Of a stretch of DNA of 64,000 nucleotides, positions 44,161 through 49,804 are shown one piece after another. Each line of letters opens with the position of its first letter. Position 1 is the stretch's first letter. Origin of the DNA: Gordonia iterans (GTDB taxonomy: Bacteria; Actinomycetota; Actinomycetes; Mycobacteriales; Mycobacteriaceae). The notes under the pieces are model-generated. The model saw nothing but the letters and a program-made list of their open reading frames with translations. It was not told where the DNA came from and did not search any database. The position numbers and the translations under genes are program-made. The stretch is taken from the NCBI RefSeq assembly GCF_002993285.1, contig NZ_CP027433.1, positions 682,001 through 746,000 on the forward strand, written 5' to 3'.

Positions 44161-45282
44161 TCAGCTCTCGGAGATCTTCGGCTCGACCTCGACCTGAGGA
44201 GCGGACTGAGTGGCCTTTTCCACGAGCGGGCGCACACCCTCGGCGAACCAGAACGCTTCCTCGATGTGCGGCTGCCCGGACAGCACGAAGTGATCGATGC
44301 CGACCCCGCGGTACTGCGCGATCAGGTCGGCGATCTCGGCATGACTGCCCACCAGGGCGGTTCCGGCGCCGCCGCGGACCAGACCGTAGCCGGCCCAGAG
44401 ACCCGGGTAGACCTCGAGGTTCTCGATGTCCGAGCTCAGCTGGGCCTGGCGCTTCTGGCCTTCGGACTCGGCCTTGGCGATCGCCGCGCGAGTGAACTCG
44501 ATGACGCTGCGGTCCATCCGGTCGACCAGTTTGCGGGCCTCGGCCCAGGCCTCCTCGCGAGTGTCGCGGGCGATCACGTGCGCCCGGATGCCGAACGACA
44601 GGTCGCGGCCGTGGCGCGCGGATCGTCGTCGTACGTCGTCGACGAGCTCCCCGACGGCCGCGGGCGGTTCGGTCCACGTGAGGTAGGTGTCGACGGTCTG
44701 CGCCGCCGTCTCGCGGGCCGCCTCGCTGGCCCCGCCGAAGAAGACCTCCGGCACCGGCGACGGCGGGTTGTGCACGACGGCCCCGGCCACGTCGTAGTAC
44801 TCGCCGGCGAAGTCGAACGGGGTGCCCGACCACGCTTCGCGCACGATCTTCACGAATTCGGTGGTGCGGGCGTACCGCTCGTCCTTGCTCAGACGGTCGC
44901 CGAAGCGGGCCTGCTCGGTCCGGTCGCCGCCGGTCACCACGTTCAGGGCGAGCCGCCCGCCGGACAGCTCGTGGAAGGCGGCGGCTTGCTGCGCCGCCAG
45001 GGTCGGGGACACCAGGCCTGGCCGGAAGGCGACCAGGAACTTCAGGCGGCTGGTCTGTGGGATCAGCGCGGCGGCGGTGACCCAGGCGTCGTTGCACCAC
45101 GTGCCGGTCGGGGTCAGCACCGCCTCGAAGCCCAGTTGCTCGGCGGTCTTGGCGACCAGTGCCAGGTAGTCGAGGGAAGCCGGTCGGTGCGCGGACGCGA
45201 AGCCCTCCTGCACGGCGGCGCCGACCACCTCGCGACCGTCGCCGGTCGTGGGGAGGTACCAGTGGAAATGCGGGGTGGTCAT
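44161..45282 (-). CDS. ssuD: FMNH2-dependent alkanesulfonate monooxygenase
   Basis: A 373-residue luciferase-fold enzyme. SsuD marks are FHWYLPTTGDGRE at the start, EAVLTPTGTWCNDAW, LKFLVAFRPGLVSPT, NVVTGGDRTEQARFGD and a C-terminal HIEEAFWFAEGVRPL. It cleaves C-S bonds of alkanesulfonates with reduced flavin and oxygen, freeing sulfite. The start overlaps the ssuB stop (ATGA), and it is the last gene of the sulfonate operon. No flavin reductase (ssuE) is in the operon. Confidence 0.94.
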   Translation of the reverse strand: MTTPHFHWYLPTTGDGREVVGAAVQEGFASAHRPASLDYLALVAKTAEQLGFEAVLTPTGTWCNDAWVTAAALIPQTSRLKFLVAFRPGLVSPTLAAQQAAAFHELSGGRLALNVVTGGDRTEQARFGDRLSKDERYARTTEFVKIVREAWSGTPFDFAGEYYDVAGAVVHNPPSPVPEVFFGGASEAARETAAQTVDTYLTWTEPPAAVGELVDDVRRRSARHGRDLSFGIRAHVIARDTREEAWAEARKLVDRMDRSVIEFTRAAIAKAESEGQKRQAQLSSDIENLEVYPGLWAGYGLVRGGAGTALVGSHAEIADLIAQYRGVGIDHFVLSGQPHIEEAFWFAEGVRPLVEKATQSAPQVEVEPKISES

Positions 45283-46124
45283 GAGATCTCCAGATCGGTC
45301 GGGACGGAGGCGACGCCGAGGTGCCGCAGCACGAGCTCGCGCAGCTCCACCAGGCGGAGGTCGTCGCGTTCGCGTGGACGGGGGACGTCGACGGTGAGGT
45401 CGTGGGCGATGCGGCCGTCGTCGAGCACGATGACGCGGTCGGCCAGGACGACGGCCTCCTCGACGTCGTGGGTGACCAGGAGCGCGGCGAATCCATGTTC
45501 GGCCCACAGGCGGGTGAGCAGGGTGTGCGCCTCCAGCCGGGTGAGCGCATCGAGGGCGCCGAAAGGCTCGTCGAGCAGCAGCAGGTCGGGCTCCCGGACC
45601 AGCGCACGGGCGAGCGAGGCGCGTTGCGCCTCCCCGCCGGACAGGGTCAGCGGCCAGGCGTCGACGCGGTGACCGAGTCCCACCTCGCCGAGGGCCCCGA
45701 CAGCGAGTGCGTCGAGGTCGCGCCGGGAGGCCCCGGGGCGCTGCAGGTTCAGCGAGACGTTGGCGCGGACCTTACGCCAGGGCAGGAGTCGCGGCTCCTG
45801 GAAGGCGACGGCCCGTGAGCCGTCGACCTCGACGGTCCCACCGTGCTCGGCGTCCAGCCCGGCGACGATCCGCAGCAGCGTCGACTTTCCCGAACCGGAT
45901 CGCCCGACCAGCGCGATGATCTCGCCACGGTGCACGTCCAGATCGATGCCGGTCAGGACGCCGACCTCGCCGAACGACCGGGAGACGTCCCGGACCTGCG
46001 CGAGGACCGCCCCTTGAGCCTGTCCCGCTCCTCGAGCTCGTCCCGCTCCTTGAGCTTGTCCTGCTCCTTGAGCTCGTCCCGCTCCTTGAGCTCGTCCCGC
46101 TCCTTGAGCTCGTCGAAAGGTCAT
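45279..46124 (-). CDS. ssuB: Sulfonate ABC transporter ATP-binding protein with repeat-derived N-terminus
   Basis: A 281-residue ABC ATPase. Walker A is GRSGSGKSTLL (about 73), the signature LSGGEAQRASLARAL (about 161), Walker B LLLLDEPFGALD (about 182), and the switch His VTHDVEEA. It powers uptake of sulfonates with SsuC and SsuA. The first 40 residues are an odd addition: six Ala-Gln/Arg-Gly-Ala hexapeptides encoded by 18-bp DNA repeats. The ATG at 46124 is the last start of the upstream 50-bp array and overlaps the TGA of the sixth mini-ORF. The ordinary domain begins at about residue 41 (VLAQVRDVSRSFG). Confidence 0.93.
   Translation of the reverse strand: MTFRRAQGAGRAQGAGRAQGAGQAQGAGRARGAGQAQGAVLAQVRDVSRSFGEVGVLTGIDLDVHRGEIIALVGRSGSGKSTLLRIVAGLDAEHGGTVEVDGSRAVAFQEPRLLPWRKVRANVSLNLQRPGASRRDLDALAVGALGEVGLGHRVDAWPLTLSGGEAQRASLARALVREPDLLLLDEPFGALDALTRLEAHTLLTRLWAEHGFAALLVTHDVEEAVVLADRVIVLDDGRIAHDLTVDVPRPRERDDLRLVELRELVLRHLGVASVPTDLEIS
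46016..46115 (-). repeat. In-frame 18-bp repeats in the ssuB N-terminus
   Basis: About six units with the minus-strand core CGAGCTCAAGGAGCGGGA. Each adds six residues (R/Q-A-Q-G-A-G) and keeps the frame. The core AGCTCAAGGAGC is also the building block of the adjacent 50-bp array. Confidence 0.88.
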
Positions 46125-46130
46125 CGCGCC

Positions 46131-46430
46131 ACTCCTTGAGCTTGTCTTGCTCCTTGAGCTCGTCGAAAGGTCATCGCGCCACTCCTTGAGCTTGTCTTGC
46201 TCCTTGAGCTTGTCGAAAGGTCATCGCGCCGCTCCTTGAGCTTGTCTTGCTCCTTGAGCTTGTCGAAAGGTCATCGCGCCGCTCCTTGAGCTTGTCTTGC
46301 TCCTTGAGCTTGTCGAAAGGTCATCGCGCCGCTCCTTGAGCTTGTCTTGCTCCTTGAGCTTGTCGAAAGGTCATCGCGCCGCTCCTTGAGCTTGTCTTGC
46401 TCCTTGAGCTTGTCGAAAGGTCATCGCGCC
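46131..46430 (-). repeat. Six 50-bp tandem repeats carrying coupled mini-ORFs, between ssuC and ssuB
   Basis: The element TCATCGCGCC recurs at 46121, 46171, 46221, 46271, 46321, 46371 and 46421, exactly 50 bp apart, and the bases between are nearly identical. Read on the minus strand, each unit contains AAGGAG, a seven-base gap, ATG, then 16 more codons and TGA. The TGA lies inside the ATGA of the next unit. The predicted peptide is MTFRQAQGARQAQGAAR, with small variants. Mini-ORFs start at 46424, 46374, 46324, 46274, 46224 and 46174. The first ATG overlaps the ssuC stop and the sixth TGA overlaps the ssuB start. Whether the peptides are made is unknown. Confidence 0.95.
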
Positions 46431-47299
46431 ACCCTCCAGCGCAGCAGGTACGACTCCAGGCCGCGGACGATCCAATCGGTGGTGAGGCCGAGGAACGCGT
46501 AGATCACCAGGCCGAGCACGATGATGTCGTCGCGCAGGTAGGTGCGCGCATTCATCACCAGGTAGCCCAGGCCGGCGTCGGCGTTGATCTGCTCGGCGAC
46601 GATCAGCGAGAGCCACGCCACCGAGAGCGACAGGCGGAAGCCGGTGAGCGCACTGGGCACCGAGCCGGGCAGGATCACGGTCCGGGCCAGGCCCCAGCGG
46701 CCCAGGCCGAGCGACCGGCCGGCCTCGATGAGCTTCGGGTCGACGCTCTGGATGCCCGCGACCAGATTGAGGTAGAGCGGAAACATGACGCCGAGCGCGA
46801 TCAGGAAGATCTTCGGCTCCTCGCCGATGCCGAACCAGACGACGAAGAGGGGTATCAGTCCGAGGAAGGGGATGGTGCGCAGCATCTGCAAGGGCGGGTC
46901 GATCGCCAGGTCGGCGACCCGGAAGAAGCCCACGAGCAGCCCCAGGACCAGTGCGAGGGTCACGCCCAGGACCAGACCGTAGGCGACGCGTTCGAGCGAG
47001 ACCGGCAGCGCCGCGGACAGGCTCCCGTCGGCCCACGTCTCCTGGGCGGCGGCGAACACCTGCGAGGGCGCGGCCAGCTTGTCCTCGGGGAGCACCCCGG
47101 TCACGGACAGGACTTGCCACAGGATCAGGAGCACGACGGGCGAGACCAGCCGGAGCAGCGCCGACCAGCCGATCGTCGGCAGCCGGATCGCCGACAGCCG
47201 TTGCGCGATCGAGACGCGCTCCGGGTTCTCGGAAACGTGGCCGGGACCGGACCGCACGGAAGGGGCATCGAGCGGCGGCCGGGTGAGCACGCCGGTCAT
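46421..47299 (-). CDS. ssuC: Sulfonate ABC transporter permease
   Basis: A 292-residue inner-membrane permease with about six helices after a 55-residue cytosolic start. The family block is EAGRSLGLGRWGLARTVILPG (EAA motif, about 195) followed by GLGYLVMNARTYLRDD. It forms the channel for sulfonates with SsuB and SsuA. The ATG at 47299 overlaps the ssuA stop (ATGA). Its last codons (GTG GCG CGA TGA) are the sequence that was duplicated with each 50-bp unit. Confidence 0.94.
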   Translation of the reverse strand: MTGVLTRPPLDAPSVRSGPGHVSENPERVSIAQRLSAIRLPTIGWSALLRLVSPVVLLILWQVLSVTGVLPEDKLAAPSQVFAAAQETWADGSLSAALPVSLERVAYGLVLGVTLALVLGLLVGFFRVADLAIDPPLQMLRTIPFLGLIPLFVVWFGIGEEPKIFLIALGVMFPLYLNLVAGIQSVDPKLIEAGRSLGLGRWGLARTVILPGSVPSALTGFRLSLSVAWLSLIVAEQINADAGLGYLVMNARTYLRDDIIVLGLVIYAFLGLTTDWIVRGLESYLLRWRVAR

Positions 47300-48300
47300 G
47301 ATCGGTTCTCCTCCACGACCGGGTTGAACTCGTCGTCGAAGTACTCCGTGGCGTCGGGCTTGTTCGGGATCACGCCGGCGCCGGAGAAGAGGTCGATCAG
47401 CTTCTGCTGCTTGGCGATCCGTTCGGCGTCGATCGGCACGATCTCCCGGGCCGAGGTGTCGAAGGTGGCGGCGGCCACCGGCTCCGGGAGCGTGGTCAGC
47501 CTGCTGAAGATCGGCACCCACTTGTCCTTGTTGTGCACGGCCCATCGCTGTGCGCGGGTCACCCGGCCGACGAAGTCGGAGAGCGCGGCGTTCTTCGCCT
47601 TGTCGCCCAGCGCCGCGTCGGAGGCGAGGTAGTAGCCCTGTTGCGTCGTCAGGCCGGTGCCGTCGGCCAGCACGCGCGCCTTGCTCTGCTGCTGCGCGAT
47701 CACCGCGTACGGATTCCACACGGCCCAGGCATCGATCTGCCCGGCGTTGAACGCCGCGAGCCCCTCGTTCGGCGTCAGGTACGTCTCGGTGACGTCGCCG
47801 GGTTCCAGCCCGGCCTGATCCAGCAGGGCCAGCACCAGTCCGTTGGAGCTGGATCCTTTGGTGAAAGCGATCCTCTTGCCCTTCAATTCGCCGACCGACC
47901 TGATCGGCGAGCCGGCCGGCACCAGCAGGAAGTCGTTGGCCGTGCTGCCGGCGAGGATCGCGATAATCTTCAGTGGAGATCCGGCCGACTGAGCGAACAG
48001 CGCGGGGACGTCACCGGTGGAGCCGACGTCCACCTTGCCCGCCGCGGCGGCTTCGAGCAGGGGCGGGCCGGCCTCGAAGGTGGCCCACCTGATCTTGTAG
48101 GGGAGGTCGCTCAGTTCCCCCGCGGATTCGAGCAGCGTCTGCGTGGACTTGACCTGGTCACCGACGACCAGGGTGATCTCTCCCGAGCCGGCGCTGTCGT
48201 CGCTCCCGCCGTCGTTCGCGGAGCAGGCGGTCCCGGCCATCGTGAGCGCGGCCGCCGCCGCGAGAGACACACCGAACCGACCGAACTTCCACCGTGACAC
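47296..48300 (-). CDS. ssuA: Sulfonate ABC transporter substrate-binding protein
   Basis: A 334-residue exported binding protein: a basic start (SRWKFGRFG), hydrophobic core (SLAAAAALTMAG) and a Cys in GTACSAND that may be lipidated, although the -3 residue Gly is atypical. The ligand domain has the SsuA/NMT1 pattern (FEAGPPLLEAAAAGKVDVGSTGDVP; GKRIAFTKGSSSNGLVLALL). I chose GTG at 48300 because AGAGGAG lies seven bases upstream; an ATG at 48318 has no such site. It is the first gene of the operon; the 237-bp gap to sseA holds divergent promoters. Confidence 0.93.
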   Translation of the reverse strand: MSRWKFGRFGVSLAAAAALTMAGTACSANDGGSDDSAGSGEITLVVGDQVKSTQTLLESAGELSDLPYKIRWATFEAGPPLLEAAAAGKVDVGSTGDVPALFAQSAGSPLKIIAILAGSTANDFLLVPAGSPIRSVGELKGKRIAFTKGSSSNGLVLALLDQAGLEPGDVTETYLTPNEGLAAFNAGQIDAWAVWNPYAVIAQQQSKARVLADGTGLTTQQGYYLASDAALGDKAKNAALSDFVGRVTRAQRWAVHNKDKWVPIFSRLTTLPEPVAAATFDTSAREIVPIDAERIAKQQKLIDLFSGAGVIPNKPDATEYFDDEFNPVVEENRS

Positions 48301-49418: not shown

Positions 49419-49715
49419 TCAGTGGTCGTCGTAATGCCCGTCGTGCGCGGCGTGGCGGTGACCGTCGTGCAGGTAGTCGACGTGATCGCCGTGCGGAACG
49501 GCGTCGTGGCCGCAGTTCTCGTCGTGCTCGTGGGCGTGGTCGGCGTGAACCACGTGCTCGGCGGGCTCGCACTCGTCGTAGTGGCCGTCGTGCTCGCGGT
49601 GCAGGTGGCCGTCGTGCGCGTAGTCGACGTGGTCGCCGTGCGGGACCGCGGTATGACCGCAGTCGGCGCCGTGCTGGTGGTCGTGGTCCGGGTGCTCGGT
49701 GTGCAGGCTCGGCAT
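49419..49715 (-). CDS. Histidine-rich, probable zinc-binding protein
   Basis: A 98-residue hydrophilic protein, about a quarter histidine, with many Asp/Glu. It contains two near repeats of GHTAVPHGDHVDYAHDGHLH (about 20 and 70), each with a Cys before it (ADCGH, ENCGH). There is no signal peptide. I chose ATG at 49715 because GGAAGGA lies five bases upstream. It sits downstream of the cysteine-free L36 gene and its Zur-like box. That fits a role as a zinc store or chaperone made under zinc shortage; this is inferred from composition and context. Confidence 0.8.
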   Translation of the reverse strand: MPSLHTEHPDHDHQHGADCGHTAVPHGDHVDYAHDGHLHREHDGHYDECEPAEHVVHADHAHEHDENCGHDAVPHGDHVDYLHDGHRHAAHDGHYDDH

Positions 49716-49734
49716 GGAGGTCCTTCCAGGAAGT

Positions 49735-49762
49735 ATCGCAATATGCGCATTGATGAATGTAT
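49735..49762. promoter_or_regulatory. AT-rich palindromic region upstream of the histidine-rich gene
   Basis: Contains ATGCGCAT and a CATT-GATG-AATG inverted repeat in a locally AT-rich stretch, 20 bp upstream of the start. It may be an SmtB/Zur-type operator; the match to any consensus is loose. Confidence 0.35.
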
Positions 49763-49804
49763 TTCCCGGTCGACCCGATGTCAACGCCCCGACGGCCCCG
49801 GGGC

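Follow-up and report, generated by a model that had tools for sequence, protein, structure and literature searches.

The gap between the sulfonate permease gene ssuC and the ABC ATPase gene ssuB of Gordonia iterans is filled, on the minus strand, by six 50-bp units that form six 17-codon mini-ORFs arranged stop to start. The TGA of each mini-ORF overlaps the next ATG through ATGA, and the seventh ATG, at position 46124, is the start codon of ssuB. The array is most likely a tolerated insertion that preserved translational coupling. In the reading that we favor as fairly probable, a high-copy repeat special to this lineage was inserted behind a stop codon and expanded in tandem, in a manner resembling mycobacterial MIRUs, and stop/start coupling renders it harmless. 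Positions are those of the plus strand of the window, the whole 64,000-nucleotide stretch of DNA that was analysed, unless genome coordinates are given.

Anatomy of the ssuC–ssuB ladder

The minus-strand gene order is ssuA, ssuC, ssuB, ssuD. The sulfonate-binding protein gene ssuA (47296-48270) was assigned by gene model and by an NCBIfam match (TIGR01728) above the cut-off. SsuA alone passed a curated NCBIfam cut-off; the best matches of the other three products were strong yet below theirs. These are the permease SsuC (46421-47299; SsuC NF008470, E 2e-58), the ATPase SsuB (45279-46124; NF008420, across residues 43-268) and the alkanesulfonate monooxygenase SsuD (44161-45282; NF001939/TIGR03565). 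The ssuA stop overlaps the ssuC start through ATGA (47296-47299), and the ssuD start overlaps the ssuB stop in the same way (45279-45282). Also on the minus strand of the window, a short repetitive ORF rich in His and Asp (49419-49784) possibly encodes a metal-binding protein.

Tandem Repeats Finder reported the array at 46079-46430 (minus strand) with a period of 50, 7.0 copies, 98% match and a score of 655, a degree of repetition far above chance expectation. The TGA of ssuC overlaps the ATG of mini-ORF 1 (46371-46424), which encodes MTFRQAQGARQAQGAAR. The same product is encoded by mini-ORFs 2 (46321-46374), 3 (46271-46324) and 4 (46221-46274), followed by mini-ORF 5 (46171-46224; MTFRQAQGARQAQGVAR) and mini-ORF 6 (46121-46174; MTFRRAQGARQAQGVAR), whose TGA overlaps the ATG of ssuB. 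All six lie on the minus strand. A sequence-only reading of this DNA had described a ladder of mini-ORFs from the ssuC stop to the ssuB start, and every ORF and ATGA link of it was recovered. It had also placed AAGGAG in every unit, which is accurate for ATGs 2-7, where the motif lies 7 nt ahead of the start codon; the first ATG is served by a native GGAGG instead. Another AAGGAG lies inside each mini-ORF. The seventh ATG does open ssuB, as that reading had it, but the repetition does not end there, since the 50-bp repeat continues inside the gene as an 18-bp in-frame array (46007-46114, minus strand; Tandem Repeats Finder) encoding an N-terminus rich in RAQGAG.

The start of ssuB is constrained by its reading frame. 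No upstream start lies in the open frame, and the next in-frame ATG, GTG or TTG occurs only at codon 64, inside the ABC domain; because no other start precedes that codon, any SsuB that is made must start at 46124, where the ladder has its last ATG. SsuB would then carry a low-complexity, repeat-coded N-terminal extension of about 40 residues ahead of a complete ATPase domain (residues 43-268) whose Walker A motif is intact. The presence of the ladder, together with the lack of an alternative early start, bears out the earlier proposal that each unit resets the frame and leaves ssuB readable at any unit number.

Each 50-bp unit consists of the native end of ssuC, GTGGCGCGATGACC, and the repeat. 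The ssuB-proximal units retain GTGGCGCG, and the four ssuC-proximal units, which carry GCGGCGCG, are mutually identical. Because these four are identical and GTGGCGCG persists next to ssuB, the ssuC side of the array was probably amplified last. In G. jacobaea, G. sputi, G. jinhuaensis and a Williamsia, the ssuC–ssuB overlap is a plain ATGA with no repeat. Because these relatives show the bare junction, the array is read as an insertion specific to this lineage, made where the two genes were already coupled; tandem duplication, which copied the ATGA, came afterwards.

Predicted pairing with the anti-Shine-Dalgarno sequence ranged from -8.6 to -10.6 kcal/mol across all seven ATGs. The sequence used in this calculation is what we take to be the actinobacterial anti-Shine-Dalgarno, from general knowledge rather than read from the G. 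iterans genome. Since every ATG has its own ribosome site, a relay of ribosomes from ssuC may be unneeded for SsuB synthesis. A scan for sigma-70-like promoters and intrinsic terminators found neither, and folding was only mildly better than that of shuffled sequences (z -1.85).

A dispersed core repeat and its frame solutions

The array contains a 20-bp core, CCTTTCGACAAGCTCAAGGAGC, with an AAGGAG of its own. The distribution of this core was surveyed by genome searches and in 37 stretches taken around repeat sites. Allowing up to 3 mismatches, the core (TTTCGACAAGCTCAAGGAGC) was found at 182 sites in the 4.0-Mb G. iterans genome, as compared to 1 site for the reversed control, and at 0-21 sites per genome in 58 other Gordonia genomes. 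A search of the genus for RTGANNTTTCGACNNGCTCAA gave 15 matches in G. iterans and 0 in the 58 other genomes. The period of the arrays differs by locus (28, 35, 42, 45, 50, 51, 56, 57, 94, 104, 106, 115, 143 and 164, among others). The core recurs from array to array; whatever else a unit holds is local sequence. At four loci (L162, L169, L176 and L185) the core alternates with another repeat that is longer, of the CGTTTCGACTCGCCTCG...GGCTCAACGAGCG type, likely a related family. A text query of the literature with the core sequence returned nothing on bacterial repeats. A phage or plasmid origin of the array was considered and set aside after searches gave no phage match and two weak plasmid matches. 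A RAYT/REP origin was rejected as well, as no Y1_Tnp (PF01797) match was found in the whole genome and the control genomes were positive.

As judged with a simple gene finder based on codon usage, 24 of 32 intergenic clusters of the core follow a co-oriented stop codon. In five cases, behind ssuC and hemL and at L154, L155 and L159, the core starts exactly two bases past the stop (stop+CC). This placement is a pattern, from which a mechanism of insertion does not follow. Where a stop overlaps the next start, an insertion right after the stop falls just within the next gene.

Such insertions were found in other operons. A second stop/start relay runs from hemL to a histidine phosphatase gene (L182, genome 3760070-3760320, minus strand), passing from a TGA/ATG junction through a mini-ORF encoding MTFRQAQGAK to ATGA, and then through a second ORF, (MTSSGSE)n..., to another ATGA and the phosphatase start. 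The second ORF is built of 21-bp repeat units and holds many in-frame ATGs. At this locus a one-unit mini-ORF, MTCPVARQGAK, is found in a sister genome (G048), and the element is absent from the other relatives seen. A one-step relay links a carboxyltransferase gene to the biotin carboxylase gene accC (L181, genome about 3635840-3635970, minus strand); here a 42-codon repeat mini-ORF ends in GTGA, whose GTG is likely the biotin carboxylase start. The same sister genome has an in-frame repeat at accC instead of the mini-ORF. Between hsaG and hsaF the repeat forms an in-frame N-terminal extension of hsaF, which is present only in G. iterans among 20 loci, and between two acyl-CoA dehydrogenase genes (L158) it lengthens the upstream gene with the overlap kept. 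At hemL and hsaF nearly all relatives have gaps free of the repeat, as do most relatives at accC. In each of the five intra-operon cases examined (ssuCB, hemL, accC, hsaF and the acyl-CoA dehydrogenase pair) the downstream gene is readable.

Two further candidates were rejected as operon devices. A three-unit GTGA ladder of 32-bp units (positions 2490-2700 of L178, genome about 3451490) is intergenic, lies between convergent predicted genes some 600 nt past the closest one on its upstream side, and has no gene to couple, which makes it helpful as a negative control. The other, L152, is a suspected ladder beside a tRNA gene.

The ladder as evidence and the competing explanations

The chaining of stops and starts is by itself less improbable than it appears. 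When all tandem duplications of 15-120 bp spanning an ATGA were simulated, one third gave ladders, one third in-frame fusions and one third broken frames. Markov sequence of equal composition yielded about 0.17 chains of at least 7 ORFs (each no longer than 60 codons) per 64 kb, and in the real 64-kb window no other chain reaches 4 ORFs. Because duplication over an ATGA produces a ladder in a third of cases, the ladder is no proof of a regulator; it follows from duplication where two genes are coupled, perhaps with selection acting as a filter. The repeat also occurs at many sites where coupling is not possible, including L178, which argues against a designed device.

In the favored reading, an interspersed repeat bearing its own AAGGAG would have inserted right behind the TGA shared with the ssuB start (ATGACC). 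The native stop/start junction and the repeat would then have been duplicated together in tandem, giving 50-bp cassettes, a length that is 2 mod 3. Each cassette closes the previous frame and restarts through AAGGAG-7 nt-ATG. Ribosomes leaving ssuC, either relayed along the array or initiating afresh, could reach the last ATG and produce SsuB with its extension. A rival reading is a neutral repeat, where the mini-ORFs have no meaningful translation, ribosomes initiate anew at the last AAGGAG-ATG to make SsuB, and duplication yields the ladder incidentally. The ribosome site at each ATG, the ladder frequency among simulated duplications and the L178 ladder about 600 nt from the nearest upstream predicted gene are all consistent with this. 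However, the reading chain is kept at every one of the five intra-operon insertions, through several different frame solutions, and we regard this reading as unlikely. The sequence-only reading had suggested a tunable, possibly variable attenuator, with the number of restarts setting the SsuB:SsuC ratio and differing between cells. The four identical ssuC-proximal units suggest a recent change in copy number, the M. tuberculosis complex shows variation in MIRU copy number (PMC2453075), and for MIRU differential translation inside an operon has been proposed (PMC2734929). A ribosome site on every ATG would nevertheless blunt any cumulative loss, and many arrays of the family sit where coupling is impossible. 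We consider such an attenuator improbable.

A role at the level of RNA or DNA, such as 3'-end structure, mRNA stability, protein binding or promoter activity, would make the position between ssuC and ssuB incidental. It would fit the placement of intergenic clusters behind co-oriented stops, and the senX3-regX3 gap, which contains MIRU, shows promoter activity (PMC4213456). The lack of a promoter or terminator in the scan and folding only mildly better than in shuffled sequences make such a role very improbable here. As for damage to ssuB by the insertion, with the gene now heading to loss, the low-complexity extension and the want of an alternative start are what such a gene might show; the complete ATPase domain, the intact Walker A motif and the surviving ATGA overlap with ssuD leave this with hardly any likelihood.

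Relation to described repeat systems

Contrary to the earlier statement that no described system of this kind is known, mycobacterial MIRUs have a matching architecture: they insert at start codons in such a way that the gene becomes coupled, at -4 nt, to an ORF inside the repeat (2025 review, PMC12548453). MIRUs are 40-100 bp long and both dispersed and tandem; M. tuberculosis has them at 41 sites, of which 12 are polymorphic, and relatives show short gaps at rnc-fpg1, a comparable repeat site (PMC2734929). The senX3-regX3 array consists of 77-bp and 53-bp units, and MIRUs have been reported solely from M. leprae and the M. tuberculosis complex (PMC4213456). The Gordonia unit of 50 bp falls within the MIRU size range and is likewise repeated in tandem in an intra-operon gap. 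Its small ORFs overlap the neighboring stop and start (-4 nt), with six linked through ATGA, and the insertion lies at a coupled stop/start that is bare in relatives. The MIRU unit lengths of 77 and 53, like the 50 of Gordonia, leave a remainder of 2 on division by 3. The two differ in what is dispersed, as in Gordonia only the 20-bp core is spread over the genome, and unit length and remainder are local to each locus. In its anatomy the Gordonia array resembles a MIRU, a likeness that concerns the described architecture. A search for MIRU arrays upstream of regX3 found none at the 30 mycobacterial loci returned from 401 family genomes.

As far as the tools show, the MIRU-type solution, insertion at a coupled stop/start with the downstream gene left readable, is new outside mycobacteria. 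Because its unit make-up differs from that of MIRU, the Gordonia version perhaps evolved independently. A stronger proposal, that Gordonia has an independent MIRU-type system which spreads itself, targets stops, brings its own ribosome site and sets translation ratios in ssu, hemL and accC through relays of variable unit number, seems to us distinctly unlikely. Within one genome the frame solutions comprise a six-unit ladder, a two-ORF relay, a one-ORF relay and an in-frame fusion. They form a natural set on which to test whether a chain of termination-reinitiation steps is costly to expression or tunes it.

Two other known systems share features with the array. Like REP/REPIN elements mobilized with RAYT, the Gordonia repeat is short, present in high copy and located behind genes, with a palindromic CCTT...AAGG edge; it differs in that the genome is without Y1_Tnp, the core is often coding and the arrays include local flanks. 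With termination-reinitiation coupling it shares the ATGA overlap and a nearby ribosome site, and the whole ssuACBD operon is linked in this way. Such coupling normally involves one junction per gene pair, whereas the ssuC–ssuB gap has six near-identical junctions in series.
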